Under the pieces are notes generated by a model, which saw only the letters and a list, made by a program, of their open reading frames with translations, did no database searches and was not told the origin of the DNA. A program made the translations under genes and the position numbers. DNA of 64,000 nucleotides from Chloroflexi bacterium HGW-Chloroflexi-10 (lineage in GTDB: Bacteria; Chloroflexota; Anaerolineae; Anaerolineales; Anaerolineaceae): contig PHBZ01000028.1 in the NCBI GenBank assembly GCA_002840755.1, positions 1 through 64,000 of the forward strand, read 5' to 3'. Of the stretch, positions 30,627-38,018 are shown in pieces (the first letter of the stretch is position 1; every line of letters begins with the position of its first letter).

Positions 30627-31643
30627 ATGTTATCTGAGTCAAATACCGAAACTTACCGAATCTCATTACCTTCCAAGGGACGCTTGGCAGAAGACTGCCT
30701 TGAATTCCTCGCCGCCAGTGGTTTGCGCATCTACAAACCTAACCCACGCCAATACGAGGCTGTCATCCCGGCGCTGCCCGACCTGCGAGTACTTTTTCAG
30801 CGCGCAACGGATATCGTTACTAGCGTCATGAACGGCAGTGTGGATTTTGGCATTACCGGACTGGATGTAGTCGCCGAACTACAGGGACACGATCAAGAAA
30901 TTATCCTCTTGCACGAATCCCTCGGGTTTGGCGGCTGTTCTTTAAACCTGGCTATACCGGAAACCTGGGATAATGTCTGGGCAATAAATGATTTGAAAGT
31001 GTATGCCAGTAAACTGGATCGCCCCTTACGTGTCGCCACCAAATACCCGAACTTGGCATCCAAATTCTTTGAAAAACAAGGTATCACCACCCAGTTGATC
31101 GCCAATGAAGGTACGCTCGAAATTGCTCCCGCCATCGGTTATGCCGATATGATTTGTGATGTGGTTTCCTCAGGTGTCACCTTGCGTGACAATCGACTGC
31201 GCATGCTCGAGGGCGGTAAAATTCTCGATTCACAGGCAGTCCTCATTGCCAATGCAGCCACATTGCGCAAACAACCAGAAGCACTCCGGATTGCCCGAAT
31301 ATTAATTGAGTATTTTGAAGCGCATCTCCAGGCACGGGATAAATTAGCTGTTTTCGCCAATATGCGTGGTGATAGTCCGGAATCGATTGCTCAACTCATA
31401 TTTGACAATACCACCATTGTCGGTCTGCAAGGCCCAACCATATCTCCAGTCATTGTACGTAATGACGAAAGGCAGTGGTTTGCTGTGAACATCATTGTCC
31501 CGCGCAGCAAGCTTTACCAGTCCATTAATGAACTGCGTGCCATAGGTGGCAGTGGTGTGATTGTCTTGCCGGTAACTTACATCTTTGATGAAGAACCACC
31601 ACGCTACACTCGCTTGATCCAAAATCTGCAATCAATTCCTTAG
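30627..31643 (+). CDS. hisG: ATP phosphoribosyltransferase, long form
   Basis: First step of histidine synthesis: ATP + PRPP to phosphoribosyl-ATP. 338 aa. The catalytic part has SLPSKGRLAEDCLEFL and the PRPP loop in EGTLEIAPAIGYADMICDVVSSGVTLRDN. A C-terminal extension (about residues 260-338, VIVRNDERQWFAVNIIVPRSKLYQSINELRAIGGSGVIVLPVTYIF) is the ACT-like domain of HisG-L that confers histidine feedback, so HisZ is not needed and none is present. AAAGGA precedes the ATG. Confidence 0.95.
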   Translation: MLSESNTETYRISLPSKGRLAEDCLEFLAASGLRIYKPNPRQYEAVIPALPDLRVLFQRATDIVTSVMNGSVDFGITGLDVVAELQGHDQEIILLHESLGFGGCSLNLAIPETWDNVWAINDLKVYASKLDRPLRVATKYPNLASKFFEKQGITTQLIANEGTLEIAPAIGYADMICDVVSSGVTLRDNRLRMLEGGKILDSQAVLIANAATLRKQPEALRIARILIEYFEAHLQARDKLAVFANMRGDSPESIAQLIFDNTTIVGLQGPTISPVIVRNDERQWFAVNIIVPRSKLYQSINELRAIGGSGVIVLPVTYIFDEEPPRYTRLIQNLQSIP

Positions 31644-31656
31644 AGAGAGGTATTTC

Positions 31657-32979
31657 ATGTTTTCTATTAATTCCGTAGACGAAGCCAAACAAACCATTCT
31701 GCGCCGGCGCGCGATTGATGATTACGAAATTCCGTCAGCTCTGAGTGCCAGTATGCTCAGGTTTTTTGGTGAAGAACTTACGCCCGAGCAGGGTGTAGCA
31801 CGCATCCTCAAAGAAATCCGTACACAGGGAGATGTTGCCCTGCATAAATGGACACAGATTTTGGATGGCAGTACACAAACATCCTTCCGTGTACCAATTG
31901 AAACAATTCAATCCGCACCGCATCAAATCACTCCTGAACAAAAAGCAGCTTTGGAAGTCAGTATTAGCCGGGTACGTGCCTTTCACCAACACCAACCTCT
32001 TTCCTCCTGGATCAACAACGACTTGGGTGGAATTCTCGGTCAAATGGTTCGCCCTATCCGTCGGGTTGGCTTATACATCCCCGCCGGCACAGCGCCGCTG
32101 CCCTCCAGTGTGATCATGTCAGCCGTGCCAGCCCAAGTGGCAGGCGTTTCACAGATTGTCTTGGTGGCGCCACCTGATCGGAAAACCGGACAAATATCCT
32201 CACTTATTCTGGCCGCTGCGGCCCTATTGGGATTGGAAGAGGTTTATGCTGTGGGCGGCGCACAAGCAATTGGCGCATTGGCCTATGGCACCGAATCGAT
32301 CCCACCTGTTGACAAAATTTTCGGGCCAGGTAATCTCTTCGTCACCCTTGCAAAAAAACAGGTCTATGGCAGTGTGGGTATCGACAACTTGGCCGGTCCC
32401 ACCGAAACAATGGTTATCGCCGATGAATTTGCCAACCCGGCCTGGGTGGCATCTGATTTGCTTGCGCAGGCCGAACACGATCTACTGGCCTCTGCCATTC
32501 TCCTGACACCCTCCCAATCAATGGCAATGGCCGTAGCTGCTGAAATTCAAAAACAATTGGACCAACGTAGCCGGGTTGAAACTATCCGCACCTCATTACA
32601 AAATCGTGGCGGTGCAGTAATCACGCGCGACCTGGATGAAGCAATCGCCCTGGCAAACAACTATGGTGCAGAACATTTATGTCTGGCCGTACGTGACCCA
32701 TGGACTTGGGTTGAAAAAATCACTTGTGCAGGCGGTATCTTTATCGGAGAACATTCGTTTGAAGTCCTTGGCGATTATGTAGCTGGTCCCAGCCACGTGA
32801 TGCCAACCAGTGGTTCTGCGCGTTTTGCATCCCCGCTAAATGTCTGGGACTTTATCAAACTGATCAGCTTAATCGGGCTGGATGAAAAAACAGTCAGTCA
32901 GATTGCTCCCACTGCCATCATCATCGCAAATGCCGAGGGCCTGGATGCTCATGCTTCAGCCGCGGAGATGCGTCTATGA
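31657..32979 (+). CDS. hisD: Histidinol dehydrogenase
   Basis: 440 aa zinc enzyme oxidising L-histidinol to L-histidine in two NAD+ steps (last pathway step). Conserved blocks: RRVGLYIPAGTAPLPSSVIMSAVPAQVAGV, VYAVGGAQAIGALAYGTESIPPVDKIFGPGNLFVTLAKKQVYG, DNLAGPTETMVIAD, DLLAQAEHD and NNYGAEHLCL with the catalytic His, plus GDYVAGPSHVMPTSGSARF. 13 bp after hisG; ends in a 4-nt overlap with hisC. Confidence 0.97.
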   Translation: MFSINSVDEAKQTILRRRAIDDYEIPSALSASMLRFFGEELTPEQGVARILKEIRTQGDVALHKWTQILDGSTQTSFRVPIETIQSAPHQITPEQKAALEVSISRVRAFHQHQPLSSWINNDLGGILGQMVRPIRRVGLYIPAGTAPLPSSVIMSAVPAQVAGVSQIVLVAPPDRKTGQISSLILAAAALLGLEEVYAVGGAQAIGALAYGTESIPPVDKIFGPGNLFVTLAKKQVYGSVGIDNLAGPTETMVIADEFANPAWVASDLLAQAEHDLLASAILLTPSQSMAMAVAAEIQKQLDQRSRVETIRTSLQNRGGAVITRDLDEAIALANNYGAEHLCLAVRDPWTWVEKITCAGGIFIGEHSFEVLGDYVAGPSHVMPTSGSARFASPLNVWDFIKLISLIGLDEKTVSQIAPTAIIIANAEGLDAHASAAEMRL

Positions 32980-34073
32980 AAATCGCTCAACGTTTTAAAG
33001 ATTTTCCGGCCTACTCGCCTATCGAACCATTTGAAGTACTCTCGGCGCGTATTGGAAAACGTCCTGAGGAAATCATTAAACTCGATGCCAATGAAAACCC
33101 TTATGGCCCCTGCACAGCAGCCCTTCAGGCATTGACAGATACCCGTGTGTATCACATTTATCCGGACCCGGAAAGCCGTGCCTTAAGGGCAGCATTGCAG
33201 AAATTTACAGGTGTTCCCATACAGTATTTAATGGCCGGGTCCGGTGCTGATGAATTGATCGATTTAATCCTGCGCGTACTACTTGAACCAGGAGATACAG
33301 TAATAAATTGCCCACCCACCTTTGGTATGTATCCGTTCGATACCCGTTTGAATGCCGGCCAGGTCATAGATATTCCACGTAATGCCGATTTTTCAATCGA
33401 TATTGAAGCAATCGAAATCACAGTCAAAAACAACCAGCCAAAAGTAATTTTTGTCACCAGTCCCAATAATCCGGACGGCTCACTGCTCTCAAAAGCAGAT
33501 TTGCTGCACCTTCTGAAACTACCGCTGCTGGTAGTATTGGACGAAGCCTACCTGGAATTTACTGGTGACTGTGTGGCAGCTTGGCGGGAAAATTCCTGTA
33601 TGGGTTGGGTCCAAAATTTCAATAATCTTGTTGTTCTGCGCACTTTTAGCAAATGGGCCGGGCTGGCCGGTTTGCGTGTGGGATATGGTGCTTTTCCGCT
33701 CTGGCTAATGTCGGTTTTATGGGTTGCCAAACAACCTTACAATGTCAATGTCGCTGCATCGCAGGCCGCTATCGCATCACTGCAATCTTTGGAAGAATTA
33801 ATCCCTAATGTAAACAAATTGCGCAGCGAAAGAGAACGGTTGTGGCAATTGCTGCAAAATATTCCTTTTATTAATCCCTATCCATCGCAGGCCAATTTTA
33901 TTCTATGCGCATTAGAAGATGTGTCTGGCACTGAACTGAAACATTATCTGATCAGCAAAGGGATCTTCATCCGTACTTATGATACTCCAAATTTGCGTAA
34001 CACAATCCGTATCAGTGTAGGTAGGCCCGCTCAAACGGTCCAATTGATTTCTGCCCTGGAGGAATACCAATGA
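32976..34073 (+). CDS. hisC: Histidinol-phosphate aminotransferase
   Basis: 365 aa class I/II PLP aminotransferase. KLDANENPYGP at the N-terminus and YPDPESRALRAAL are characteristic; TSPNNPDGS, VLDEAYLEFTG and RTFSKWAGLAGLRVGYG (PLP lysine) follow. It converts imidazole acetol phosphate to histidinol phosphate with glutamate. ATGA overlap with hisD and with the following hisB gene suggests translational coupling on both sides. Confidence 0.95.
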   Translation: MKIAQRFKDFPAYSPIEPFEVLSARIGKRPEEIIKLDANENPYGPCTAALQALTDTRVYHIYPDPESRALRAALQKFTGVPIQYLMAGSGADELIDLILRVLLEPGDTVINCPPTFGMYPFDTRLNAGQVIDIPRNADFSIDIEAIEITVKNNQPKVIFVTSPNNPDGSLLSKADLLHLLKLPLLVVLDEAYLEFTGDCVAAWRENSCMGWVQNFNNLVVLRTFSKWAGLAGLRVGYGAFPLWLMSVLWVAKQPYNVNVAASQAAIASLQSLEELIPNVNKLRSERERLWQLLQNIPFINPYPSQANFILCALEDVSGTELKHYLISKGIFIRTYDTPNLRNTIRISVGRPAQTVQLISALEEYQ

Positions 34074-35155
34074 AAATAGCTCTGATTTTGTATCCGGGTG
34101 TCTCACTAAATGAAACATCCGCGTTTCTATCTGTTCTGGAAAGTGCTCATACCGCCAGTAAAACAACACTGTTTACTATAGAATATTGCAGTTACCTGCC
34201 GATGCACAATGGCAAACCGGGTCTGACACTTACCAGTGGTTATACCGGTTTACCCCTGACCGGTTTTGATTTGATCGTGCTCTGCGGTGGAAAAAACTTG
34301 CCCGATCTACTAAAAAACGAAGAATGGAAAACATGGCTCAGAAACGCCTCTCCCAGTCTGGGCTGGATAGGCATAAACCAGGGTGGTGCTTTTCTGAAAC
34401 AACTTGGAGTAAACATTCTTTCGCTGCCGCAATCTGAACCTACACTCAATCCATTTTTAGCTGGACTCTGGCTGGTGAACCAGATCAATAGTGAATTATG
34501 TGATATTACAGCTACAGATCAGAATCTGGGACCCGCATGGTATGCGGCGTTTGCCCGCAGCAATGGGCGTAGTGCCCGTTTCGCCCGCAGCAGCGCCGAA
34601 ACCAAAATTGAAGCAGAAATTACACTGGATGGCAGTGGAAACCAGTCAATCTCCACCGGTATACCCTTTCTGGATCACATGCTGGCTCAGATTGCCCGTC
34701 ACGGTTTGTTCGATATCCGCTTAAAGGCTTCTGGCGACCTGGAAATCGATCCACATCACACCATGGAAGATTGTGCCCTCACTCTTGGAGAAACCTTTCG
34801 CCTTGCGTTAGGTGATCGCAAAGGCATCCAGCGCATGGCTTCTACCTCTGTACCCATGGATGAAAGCTTGGCAACTGTCACCGTAGATTTCTCCGGCCGC
34901 CCTTATTGCGTATTACAAACACGCTGGAATGGTGAACTCGTCGCCGATATCCCGGTCTCTCTTGTTGATCACTTCCTGGAATCCTTTGCTAATGCGGCCC
35001 GCTGCAATCTGTTTGTCCAGGTTCAAGCTGGCCAGGATAATCATCACATGGCTGAAGCCGTTTTCAAAGCGCTTGCCCGCGCCTTAAACCAGGCTGTCAG
35101 TCTAGATCCACGCCGAGCAGGCATGATTCCATCTACAAAAGAAGTGCTCTTTTAG
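34070..35155 (+). CDS. hisB: Imidazoleglycerol-phosphate dehydratase with N-terminal DJ-1/PfpI-like domain
   Basis: 361 aa; a plain HisB is about 195. Residues 165-361 are a complete dehydratase: AETKIEAEITLDGSG, the metal motifs DHM (202), HHTMED (229-234), DHF (300), DNHHMAEA (323-330). Residues 1-160 form an extra alpha/beta domain that looks like a DJ-1/PfpI or GlxA-type class I glutamine-amidotransferase fold: MKIALILYPGVSLNETSAFL, FDLIVLCGGKNLPDLL and a nucleophile-elbow-like GWIGINQGGAFLKQLG. The usual Cys at the elbow is N103, so the domain is probably not catalytic. Start overlaps hisC by 4 nt. Confidence 0.9.
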   Translation: MKIALILYPGVSLNETSAFLSVLESAHTASKTTLFTIEYCSYLPMHNGKPGLTLTSGYTGLPLTGFDLIVLCGGKNLPDLLKNEEWKTWLRNASPSLGWIGINQGGAFLKQLGVNILSLPQSEPTLNPFLAGLWLVNQINSELCDITATDQNLGPAWYAAFARSNGRSARFARSSAETKIEAEITLDGSGNQSISTGIPFLDHMLAQIARHGLFDIRLKASGDLEIDPHHTMEDCALTLGETFRLALGDRKGIQRMASTSVPMDESLATVTVDFSGRPYCVLQTRWNGELVADIPVSLVDHFLESFANAARCNLFVQVQAGQDNHHMAEAVFKALARALNQAVSLDPRRAGMIPSTKEVLF

Positions 35156-35163
35156 GAGGCGCA

Positions 35164-35793
35164 ATGCAATCTATCCCATTATTATTGGTGGATGCCGGAA
35201 CTGGCAATCTTCACTCGGTATATCATACCCTCCAGCAGCTCAATTCCGAAGTAACTATTTCAAACAATCCGGATGATTTAATACACGCTGATCGCGTGGT
35301 ATTACCCGGCGTGGGTGCTTTCGCTCATTTCATGGATGGTTTACGCCAGCGAGCATTAGATCAGGCTATTCTGGAGTTTATCAAAAGTGGCAAACCCATG
35401 TTGGGTATATGTGTGGGCATGCAAGCATTGTTTGAATCCAGCGATGAGATGGGTTATTGTGCCGGATTGGGCTTATTAAAAGGAACTGTAAAACGCTTCT
35501 CTAAAACACCGGGGTTTAAGATCCCTCACACTGGTTGGAACCAGCTCTGGTACGACCCAAACCTCCCCATGCTGAAGCATATCATCCCCGGAGAATATGC
35601 TTATTTCAACCATTCCTATTTCTGTACAACGCACGAACCAGGTCTACAAACAGTAGAAACTGATTATTGTATCCGTTTCACATCTGCCGTTTGCCGGGAA
35701 AATTTGTTTGCTGTTCAATTTCATCCGGAAAAAAGCCAGAAAGTCGGATTGTCAATTCTGAATAACTTCTTAACCTGGGATGGTAACTCATGA
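35164..35793 (+). CDS. hisH: Imidazole glycerol phosphate synthase, glutaminase subunit
   Basis: 209 aa class I glutamine amidotransferase that supplies ammonia to HisF. The N-terminus LLLVDAGTGNLHSVYHTL, the nucleophile C83 in MLGICVGMQALFESS and the His-Glu pair in VQFHPEKSQ near residue 186 complete the triad. GGAGG lies just upstream of the ATG. Its stop overlaps the hisA start (ATGA). Confidence 0.96.
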   Translation: MQSIPLLLVDAGTGNLHSVYHTLQQLNSEVTISNNPDDLIHADRVVLPGVGAFAHFMDGLRQRALDQAILEFIKSGKPMLGICVGMQALFESSDEMGYCAGLGLLKGTVKRFSKTPGFKIPHTGWNQLWYDPNLPMLKHIIPGEYAYFNHSYFCTTHEPGLQTVETDYCIRFTSAVCRENLFAVQFHPEKSQKVGLSILNNFLTWDGNS

Positions 35794-36542
35794 AGCCTTT
35801 TACTATATACCCGGCTATCGACCTGCGTAATGGAGAGGTAGTCCGCCTGAAGTACGGCGACCCGTCCTTACAAACTACATATCCATCATCTCCAGCCGCC
35901 GCCGCTCAGCGCTGGATTGATCTCGGAGCATCCTGGCTGCATGTTGTCAACCTGGATGGTGCCTTCGCCGATCAGGACAAAATTAACCAGGCTGCTATTC
36001 GTTCGATCCTGGAAATTGCGATACCTGCCGGAGTCTGTGTGCAGCTTGGTGGCGGCATTCGTGACCTCACTTCGGCTAACGCAGCACTAAAAATGGGAGT
36101 CAGCCGCGTCATCCTCGGGACAATTGCTGTAGAAAAACCAACATTTGTCGCTGAATTAATTACAAGGGTCGGATCATCCAGGGTTGTGATCGGCGTGGAT
36201 GCACGCAATGGCCTGGTTCATACCCGTGGATGGCAAACTGCAACCGGGCTGGATGTGGAAACTTTTGCCAAAACGTTAAAAACCAATGGTGTTGAAACAA
36301 TTATTTTCACCGATATTCAGCGGGATGGAGTTGGTGGTGGAGTCAACCTGGGATCGACTAGACGCCTGGCACAAGCCAGTCAATTACAGGTTATAGCTTC
36401 AGGTGGTATCCATCGATTACAAGATGTTCAGGCGGTAAAAGATGCCGCCTTACCGGGAGTTGTCATCGGAAGGGCTTTATACGAAGGTACTCTCGACCCT
36501 CAAACAACATTTGCCTTACAAGAAGGATCTGAAACATGTTAG
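35790..36542 (+). CDS. hisA: ProFAR isomerase (HisA)
   Basis: 250 aa TIM barrel catalysing the Amadori rearrangement of ProFAR to PRFAR. The catalytic Asp pair is seen in [18 protein letters not shown] (D11) and [17 protein letters not shown] near residue 170; phosphate loops are QLGGGIRD and [13 protein letters not shown]. Overlaps hisH by 4 nt and hisF by 7 nt. PriA-type dual function is unlikely to be decided by sequence alone. Confidence 0.95.
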
Positions 36543-37309
36543 CCAAACGAATCATTCCCTGCCTGGATATCAAAGACGGCCGTGTGGTGAAAGGCGTTAA
36601 TTTTATCAACCTGCGCGATGCCGGCGACCCGGTTGAACAGGCCGCTCTGTATGATCAGTCAGGTGCCGATGAACTGGTCTTCCTGGATATTTCTGCAACC
36701 GCGGAAGGACATGCCACCGTTGTAGAAGTCGTCCGCCATGTAGCGGAAAAGATCCACATGCCACTCACTGTTGGTGGTGGTATTCGTAGCAGTGCGGATA
36801 TGCGTAAACTTCTGCTTGCTGGTGCGGATAAAATCAGCATCAATTCTGCGGCTGTAAACAATCCATCTTTAATCACCCAGGGAGCGCAACAATTCGGCAG
36901 CCAATGTATTGTATTGGCAGTGGATGCGCGCCGTATTCCAGGGACTGCAGTTGATCCGCGCTGGGAAGTCTTCGTTAGTGGTGGGCGCACCCCCACCGGG
37001 ATGGATGCCTTGGAATGGGTGAAACGCGGCGTGGAATTGGGCGCTGGAGAAATCCTGCTCACTAGCATGGATTGCGACGGTACATTGAGCGGTTATGATC
37101 TGGAGCTCAATCAGCAGGTTGCCCAATTGGTAAATGTGCCTCTCATCGCTTCTGGTGGTGCGGGCAGCATGCAGCATTTTGCTGATGTGCTTCATGCCGG
37201 TGCGGATGCCGCACTGGCTGCCTCTCTCTTTCATGATGGCATCCTCACCATTCCGGAATTGAAAGACTATCTCGCAGCCCAAAACCTGTCCATAAGGAGA
37301 AATAAATGA
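36536..37309 (+). CDS. hisF: Imidazole glycerol phosphate synthase, cyclase subunit
   Basis: 257 aa TIM barrel. [23 protein letters not shown] holds the first catalytic Asp (D11); LAVDARR near residue 130 the second. Phosphate loops: [12 protein letters not shown] and [12 protein letters not shown]. It makes imidazole glycerol phosphate and AICAR from PRFAR and ammonia from HisH. Partially overlapping with hisA and coupled to hisI. Confidence 0.97.
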
Positions 37310-37677
37310 ATTTGGATTTTTCCCAGCTAAAAACTGATCCCCTTGGTTTGATCCCGGCAGTTATTCAGGATACTGAAACGCTGCAGGTATTGATGGTCGG
37401 TTGGATGAATCGCCAGTCTTACGAAGCCACCCTGGAAACCGGTTTGGTAACCTTTTGGTCACGTAGCCGTCAACAACTGTGGCAGAAAGGCGAATCCAGC
37501 GGTAACACCTTGCACCTGTCCACCATGTGGGTGGATTGCGACAAAGACACACTATTAATCCTGGCTCACCCCGTAGGACCAACCTGCCACACTGGCAGTC
37601 AAAGTTGTTTTTTTACAACACTTGACGCAGGATCATCCAAACCCGACTCAACCATATCTCGAAAACTGAGTAAATAG
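37306..37677 (+). CDS. hisI: Phosphoribosyl-AMP cyclohydrolase
   Basis: 123 aa, single-domain HisI (not fused to HisE). Motifs: [42 protein letters not shown], the Mg-site [22 protein letters not shown] with the zinc cysteines. Third pathway step. Overlaps hisF by 4 nt. The following hisE gene is separated by 62 bp, the only sizeable gap in the operon. Confidence 0.96.
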
Positions 37678-37739
37678 CATCTATTTTTTCTGTTACCCGA
37701 TTGGAACCTTACTCGTTAGAATAAATACATGGAGAAATG

Positions 37740-38018
37740 ATGAATACATTAGTGACCCTCTATCAAACTTTGGAACAACGAAGAAATTTCGAACCCGAAA
37801 CATCCTATACGGCTAGGTTATTCCAGGCTGGAGAAGATGAAATCGTTAAAAAAATCGGTGAAGAAGCCGTAGAAGTCATTCTGGCAGTTAAAGGGCAGGG
37901 TGAAGAACGAATTATCTCCGAAATCGCCGATCTGACCTACCACACCCTGGTTTTAATGGTCTCTAAGGGAATAACCTTGGAGCAAATCGCTGCAGAACTG
38001 GAACAACGCCGAAAATAA
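37740..38018 (+). CDS. hisE: Phosphoribosyl-ATP pyrophosphatase
   Basis: 92 aa MazG-fold enzyme hydrolysing PR-ATP to PR-AMP (second step). The motif SYTARLFQAGEDEIVKKIGEEAVEVILA with the conserved E-E-x-x-E-x and the later EIADLTYHTLVLM region are diagnostic. Two adjacent ATG codons exist (37737 and 37740); GGAG at 37731 is better spaced for the second. Last gene of the his operon. No histidinol phosphatase gene is in the operon, so that step must be encoded elsewhere. Confidence 0.95.
   Translation: MNTLVTLYQTLEQRRNFEPETSYTARLFQAGEDEIVKKIGEEAVEVILAVKGQGEERIISEIADLTYHTLVLMVSKGITLEQIAAELEQRRK

Follow-up and report, generated by a model that had tools for sequence, protein, structure and literature searches.

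The hisB gene of Chloroflexi bacterium HGW-Chloroflexi-10 encodes a long N-terminal extension ahead of a complete imidazoleglycerol-phosphate dehydratase (IGPD), and the question raised by this locus is what the additional domain is, how it came to be joined to HisB and what it now does. The DNA analysed here, referred to as the window, is the stretch of 64,000 nucleotides that starts at position 1 of contig PHBZ01000028.1. The features on which the argument turns are as follows.

30627 to 38018, forward strand: histidine operon hisG-D-C-[DJ1-hisB]-H-A-F-I-E, genes named by eye from their translations
34058 to 34062, forward strand: GGAGG, a ribosome-binding-like site within the end of hisC, read directly from the sequence
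34070 to 35155, forward strand: DJ-1-like/HisB fusion gene, 361 aa plus stop
34070 to 34558, forward strand: N-terminal DJ-1/PfpI-like pseudoenzyme domain, residues 1-163, with its second half shortened
34112 to 34114, forward strand: codon for Glu15, in the column of Asp15 of the related fusion G196, which aligns with Asp17 of isonitrile hydratase
34376 to 34378, forward strand: codon for Asn103, in the alignment column of the nucleophile Cys (C103) of the intact relative G196
34565 to 35152, forward strand: complete IGPD, from Pfam, NCBIfam, a fold search and the alignment of 17 fusions

The open reading frame runs uninterrupted through the DJ-1-like domain and HisB, and together with the Pfam and NCBIfam matches given below it confirms the preliminary description of a 361-aa hisB gene with a complete dehydratase from about residue 165. 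Since the ATG overlaps the hisC stop codon (ATGA, 34070-34073) and the GGAGG lies 7 nt upstream, the extra domain lies where translation of hisB probably begins. Separate translation of two proteins in the window was rejected, since no in-frame ATG, GTG or TTG occurs within the 40 codons that precede the ETxI motif, where the dehydratase begins. This means that HisB of the window depends on the upstream start. Several relatives have in-frame start codons in this region (for example an ATG 13 codons before ETxI in G006 and G001), and internal starts are therefore possible in some of them. When the his genes of the window were used as queries, the matching genes were recovered around the fusions of the relatives.

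The dehydratase half was matched by the Pfam model IGPD (PF00475) at residues 196-339 over all 144 model positions, with an E-value of 3.3e-59 and a score above the curated cut-off, while the NCBIfam HisB models start at residues 163-170. Nine residues (H203, H229, H230, E233, H301, H325, H326, E329 and K333) are invariant in all 17 fusions, and the first eight of these we take to be the metal-binding residues of HisB. The fold search gave 46-48% identity to the solved plant and Acanthamoeba IGPDs, and the fusion gene is the sole IGPD match in its genome. Judged by sequence, this half is HisB with all of the family residues in place. In having about 160 extra N-terminal residues on a complete IGPD inside a his operon, the protein resembles HisNB, the HisB of E. 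coli. It differs in that the domain of HisNB is a HAD phosphatase of the same pathway, whereas that of the window has a DJ-1/PfpI fold without the nucleophile. The bifunctional HisNB model (NF003937) aligned over residues 163-360 only, at 219.4 bits against a cut-off of 443, and by this test the window protein does not carry the HAD phosphatase N-terminal domain of HisNB.

It had also been remarked that the operon holds no histidinol phosphatase gene, and the operon gene list agrees. This says little, since the genome of the window has unlinked candidates: a HAD-type candidate on contig C32 (47771-48202) scored over the cut-off of TIGR01656, a model that presumably may also cover heptose phosphatases, and an IMPase-type candidate on C80 (37953-38684) scored below its cut-off. 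The PHP-type model gave a partial match only, also below cut-off. With HAD-type and IMPase-type candidates at hand, the idea that the genome is missing a histidinol phosphatase is unsupported.

On its own, the N-terminal domain of the window is a poor match to any model. Residues 1-163 scored 12.8 bits against DJ-1_PfpI (E 0.11), under the Pfam cut-off of 26.6, and no NCBIfam model matched the domain at 0.01. Since the score is below the cut-off, the DJ-1 identity cannot rest on the window sequence alone. It is the relatives that provide it: the DJ-1_PfpI cut-off was passed by seven of the nine N-domains scanned (G196, 3.6e-18; G064, 5.3e-15; G011, 8.4e-15; G013, 2.9e-12; G018, 2e-10; G026, 6e-9; G296, 3.1e-8), with that of G020 under the cut-off and that of G158 without a match, so that the window domain belongs to the DJ-1/PfpI superfamily by descent rather than by its own score. 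Among the first 11 N-domains aligned, seven matched DJ-1_PfpI at E 0.5 or better, and the solved structures found by a profile of these 11 include DJ-1 homolog D (1.5e-11) and isonitrile hydratase (3.1e-10). For the intact domain of G196 the nearest solved relative by sequence was isonitrile hydratase (3non, 7.9e-32), and NCBIfam models of AraC-type regulators matched it far under their cut-offs.

The predicted structure is consistent with this assignment. The AlphaFold2 model of residues 1-165 (mean pLDDT 79.6, pTM 0.76) has a DJ-1-type fold whose second half is shortened and of low confidence, with pLDDT per ten-residue block of 68-93 through residue 120, falling to about 50 beyond residue 140. 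In a Foldseek search with the domain model the best 50 matches were DJ-1/PfpI proteins, AraC-type regulators and large catalases, all at probability 1.00, and included isocyanide hydratase, DJ-1 and the large catalases KatE/HPII. A fold search with the full-length model returned IGPDs first, followed by isocyanide hydratase and DJ-1. The relatives' Pfam scores, the profile search and the predicted fold thus bear out the DJ-1/PfpI-like character that the preliminary description had given to residues 1-160; the assignment can be refined, isonitrile hydratase being the nearest solved relative of the G196 domain.

In DJ-1/PfpI enzymes such as isonitrile hydratase, glyoxalase and deglycase, a nucleophile Cys is found at the elbow. 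G196 keeps SVCTGALLLGAAG, an isonitrile-hydratase-like motif with the Cys, as well as Asp at position 15, while the window has Asn103 in the column of the G196 Cys, exactly the replacement of the catalytic Cys that had been noticed from the window alone. Isonitrile hydratase (InhA) of Pseudomonas fluorescens acts via Cys101 and Asp17 according to the available text of PMC10971408; the window domain differs in having Asn103 and Glu15 and in being fused and shortened. Across the 17 fusions the Cys column holds one Cys (G196), 14 substitutions and two deletions, reading N, N, N, H, H, G, R, G, G, G, D, G, gap, gap, A, C and G in the order of alignment A3, where the placement of the A (G159) and of both gaps (G170 and G158) is uncertain. 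No common residue has replaced the Cys (N, H, G, R, D and A occur), while the elbow Gly two residues after it is kept in 13 of the 17 and column 15 is Asp or Glu in all of them. About 30 residues after the elbow are absent from the genus of the window, more are absent from G170 and G158, and the region is reworked in g8. Loss of the post-elbow region may remove the surface through which DJ-1-type proteins dimerize.

Each of the 17 fusions comes from a different genome, 15 of them from the family of the window and two from another family of its order. An assembly or frameshift artefact was rejected since the fusion is uninterrupted in every one of them, and the two doubts raised at the outset, that an assembly error had joined separate genes and that the fusion might occur in this assembly only, can be set aside. 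In all 16 loci of the relatives the fusion gene lies between hisC and hisH as it does in the window; hisD is away from its usual place in the three g8 genomes. In the genus of the window hisB was found in five of eight genomes and is fused in all five. The family as a whole had a hisB match in 43 of 147 genomes, and the DJ-1-hisB fusion accounts for a minority of these (15/43), the rest comprising six hisC-hisB fusions and 22 genomes with a match on the dehydratase side only, for 13 of which the frames were read. At the level of the order 180 of 400 genomes matched, and two more fusions, G196 and G296, both from family f14, were present among the matches listed. No further fusion was found among the matches listed for the class (285 of 396 genomes matching) or the phylum (328 of 400), and in these three surveys weaker-scoring fusions could lie beyond the matches listed. 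A hidden Markov model (HMM) of the N-domain matched none of 80 loci kept from among those listed in a dehydratase-motif contig scan, a result that says little about the distribution of the fusion.

Some observations on neighbouring his genes were made along the way. A hisB match was absent from 104 of the 147 genomes of the window's family, among them G003, G004 and G005, the remaining genomes of its genus (93-99% complete); many members of the family may be unable to make histidine. Single open frames joining hisC to hisB occur in family f1 at L007, L014, L024, L040, L164 and L165 (G009, G019, G036, G062, G089 and G088, respectively) and also at L160 (G441), from a different family of the class; the two for which a start was chosen encode 577 and 586 aa. 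At L061, L063, L064 and L069, hisH and hisA are separated by an additional open frame of 359-404 codons, and extra frames in this position appeared by eye to be NYN-domain-like in G011 and G018 and lipoprotein-like in G020 and G008. G196 has in the same place (L054:1200-3060) a 555-codon frame with a Thr/Pro-rich stretch.

Since one fusion has kept the Cys while 14 have substituted and two have deleted it, it follows that an InhA-like domain joined HisB and then lost its chemistry, and that some lineages lost pieces of it. The joining of a DJ-1/PfpI enzyme of the InhA type to hisB would have taken place within this bacterial order, and the joined domain would then have lost its nucleophile Cys and, in some lineages including the genus of the window, some 30 residues from the second half. 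A single origin of all fused domains was not rejected (AU p 0.727), with weak support. In the free N-domain tree G196 falls among free-standing homologues with the forks open, and the fused rows do not form one clade in the IGPD tree, whose deep forks are weak; nor were the fused rows more clustered than shuffled labels when counted against hisC-hisB rows only, 79 of 500 shuffles being as low. A separate event or a transfer is possible for the f14 fusions. In genus g20 the IGPD tree pairs the fused G064 with the single-domain G063 as its sister (SH-aLRT 98), and we read the single-domain state of G063 as loss of the N-domain. No DJ-1 gene that might represent the precursor was found beside hisB in the unfused relatives. 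The five unfused f14 loci (L073 and L170-L173) have a hisC-like frame directly upstream of hisB, and the HMM of the 17 N-domains had no match there, nor in the remaining single-domain hisB loci that were fetched. In the 14 genomes listed with both a separate DJ-1 match and hisB, the two were always on different contigs.

A stop codon in the N-domain would kill HisB, and the open frame alone is therefore no proof of selection. We estimated dN/dS for seven genome pairs by the Nei-Gojobori method with a bootstrap range. In G006/G001 the N-domain gave 0.22 (0.13-0.35) and the dehydratase 0.05, and in G170/G158 the values were 0.09 (0.04-0.17) and 0.04. Other his genes of the same pairs gave 0.07-0.21 (five genes) and 0.05-0.08 (four genes), respectively, placing the N-domain just above the loosest of them in both of these closest pairs. 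The value of 0.09 may be too low because it rests on a dS of 1.41, about twice that of neighbouring genes, with which it would be near 0.2. By dN the N-domain evolves faster than the dehydratase (0.15 vs 0.03 and 0.13 vs 0.03). The remaining five pairs, with values of 0.18, 0.27 and 0.42 where defined, were given no weight since their N-domain dS was 1.7 or more or undefined; among them is G159/G158, which gave 0.42 (0.20-0.74) at a dS of 1.71. The identity of the window N-domain to those of G002, G007 and G006 (0.34, 0.32 and 0.24) was above the maxima of 200 neutral simulations each (0.22, 0.21 and 0.12), and the observed identity exceeded all 200 simulations in all seven pairs, three of which include the window, bearing in mind that the alignment of diverged domains slightly inflates identity and so favours this result. 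Taken together, the dN/dS of the closest pairs and the excess over neutral simulation indicate that the dead N-domain is under amino-acid constraint that is looser than that on the dehydratase. Some of the shortfall of dN/dS below 1 could reflect nothing more than selection against misfolded forms that would poison HisB.

Since the Cys has been lost and the domain has apparently been kept by selection, it probably now serves a new purpose that is not enzymatic. We propose, with about an even chance of being right, that the pseudoenzyme is retained on the outer face of the HisB 24-mer as a module for folding, stability or assembly. Plant IGPD forms a 24-mer with the N-terminal beta-sheet on its outside, as given in the accessible part of PMC10978614, and the fused domains should therefore lie on the outside of the particle. 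Retained as a structural module, up to 24 copies of the N-domain would coat the particle and would help HisB to fold, remain soluble, be stable or assemble, much as the DJ-1-like domain does that large catalases carry. These large-size subunit enzymes (KatE/HPII type) are likewise fused to a DJ-1-superfamily domain, which gives them stability and chaperone activity as described in the available sections of PMC9137513. In the catalases this domain sits at the C-terminus and has been traced to Hsp31, whereas that of the window is N-terminal, InhA-like, joined to another enzyme and of putative function. Against a structural role stand the absence of the domain from G063, its restriction to a minority of the family and its faster evolution than the dehydratase.

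These same observations would suit a domain without function that is decaying, persists because the start and ribosome-binding site of HisB are at its front, and need only stay soluble. The fast divergence, the internal deletions and the patchy presence all fit such a passenger, as does the dependence of the window HisB, with no internal start nearby, on the upstream one. We consider this unlikely although the strongest of the alternatives, since dN/dS values of 0.22 and 0.09 only just exceed those of working his genes, identity is above neutral simulation in every pair, and the clean absence of the domain in G063 beside its fused sister G064 suggests that it is not trapped. Another explanation is that the dead DJ-1 pocket binds a metabolite, be it histidine, an intermediate or another compound, and tunes HisB as HisZ does HisG, for which it is reported in the accessible text of PMC9734150 that HisZ activates HisG and mediates histidine inhibition. 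A pseudoenzyme under constraint, with the acidic residue at column 15 universal and the elbow Gly mostly retained, would fit a regulatory module, but the lack of the post-elbow stretch in the genus of the window, its reworking in g8, the variety of residues in place of the Cys and the absence of the domain from the sister genome G063 make this rather unlikely. The link to HisH-HisF that had been suggested at the outset found no support in the analysis. That the domain still performs chemistry in some members, in or beside histidine synthesis, is very improbable: G196 keeps the whole Cys motif and its match to isonitrile hydratase (7.9e-32), but the Cys is absent from the other 16 fusions including that of the window, and we know of no histidine step that needs chemistry of the DJ-1/isonitrile-hydratase type. 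More speculatively, and in our view a long shot, the fused pseudoenzyme may be a built-in ligand sensor or assembly switch, with the series from G196 to the g1 and g8 lineages recording the change from enzyme to module. If this were true, these bacteria would control histidine synthesis at its sixth step.

Whether as the structural module that we favour or otherwise, the domain has a counterpart of a kind in HisZ, which originated as a dead relative of histidyl-tRNA synthetase and is also a non-catalytic protein serving histidine synthesis. HisZ differs in being a separate protein that acts on step 1. We found no report of a DJ-1/PfpI-IGPD fusion, nor any paper on histidine biosynthesis involving hisB of Anaerolineae, in a full-text literature whose coverage leaves most subscription journals outside. 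The fusions of his genes named in the available text of PMC1963479 are hisA/hisF, hisIE, hisHF, hisNB and hisIED, and neither 'DJ-1' nor 'hisCB' appears in its main text; for hisC-hisB fusions in Chloroflexi the literature search gave a single paper, on transcriptional regulation. In DJ-1-HisB a his gene is thus fused to an unusual partner that is catalytically dead, and this adds to those named in PMC1963479 a partner that comes from outside the pathway and is without its catalytic residue. Since intact, inactivated and shortened versions are joined to the same enzyme, this family of fusions allows the conversion of an enzyme into a structural or regulatory component to be traced.
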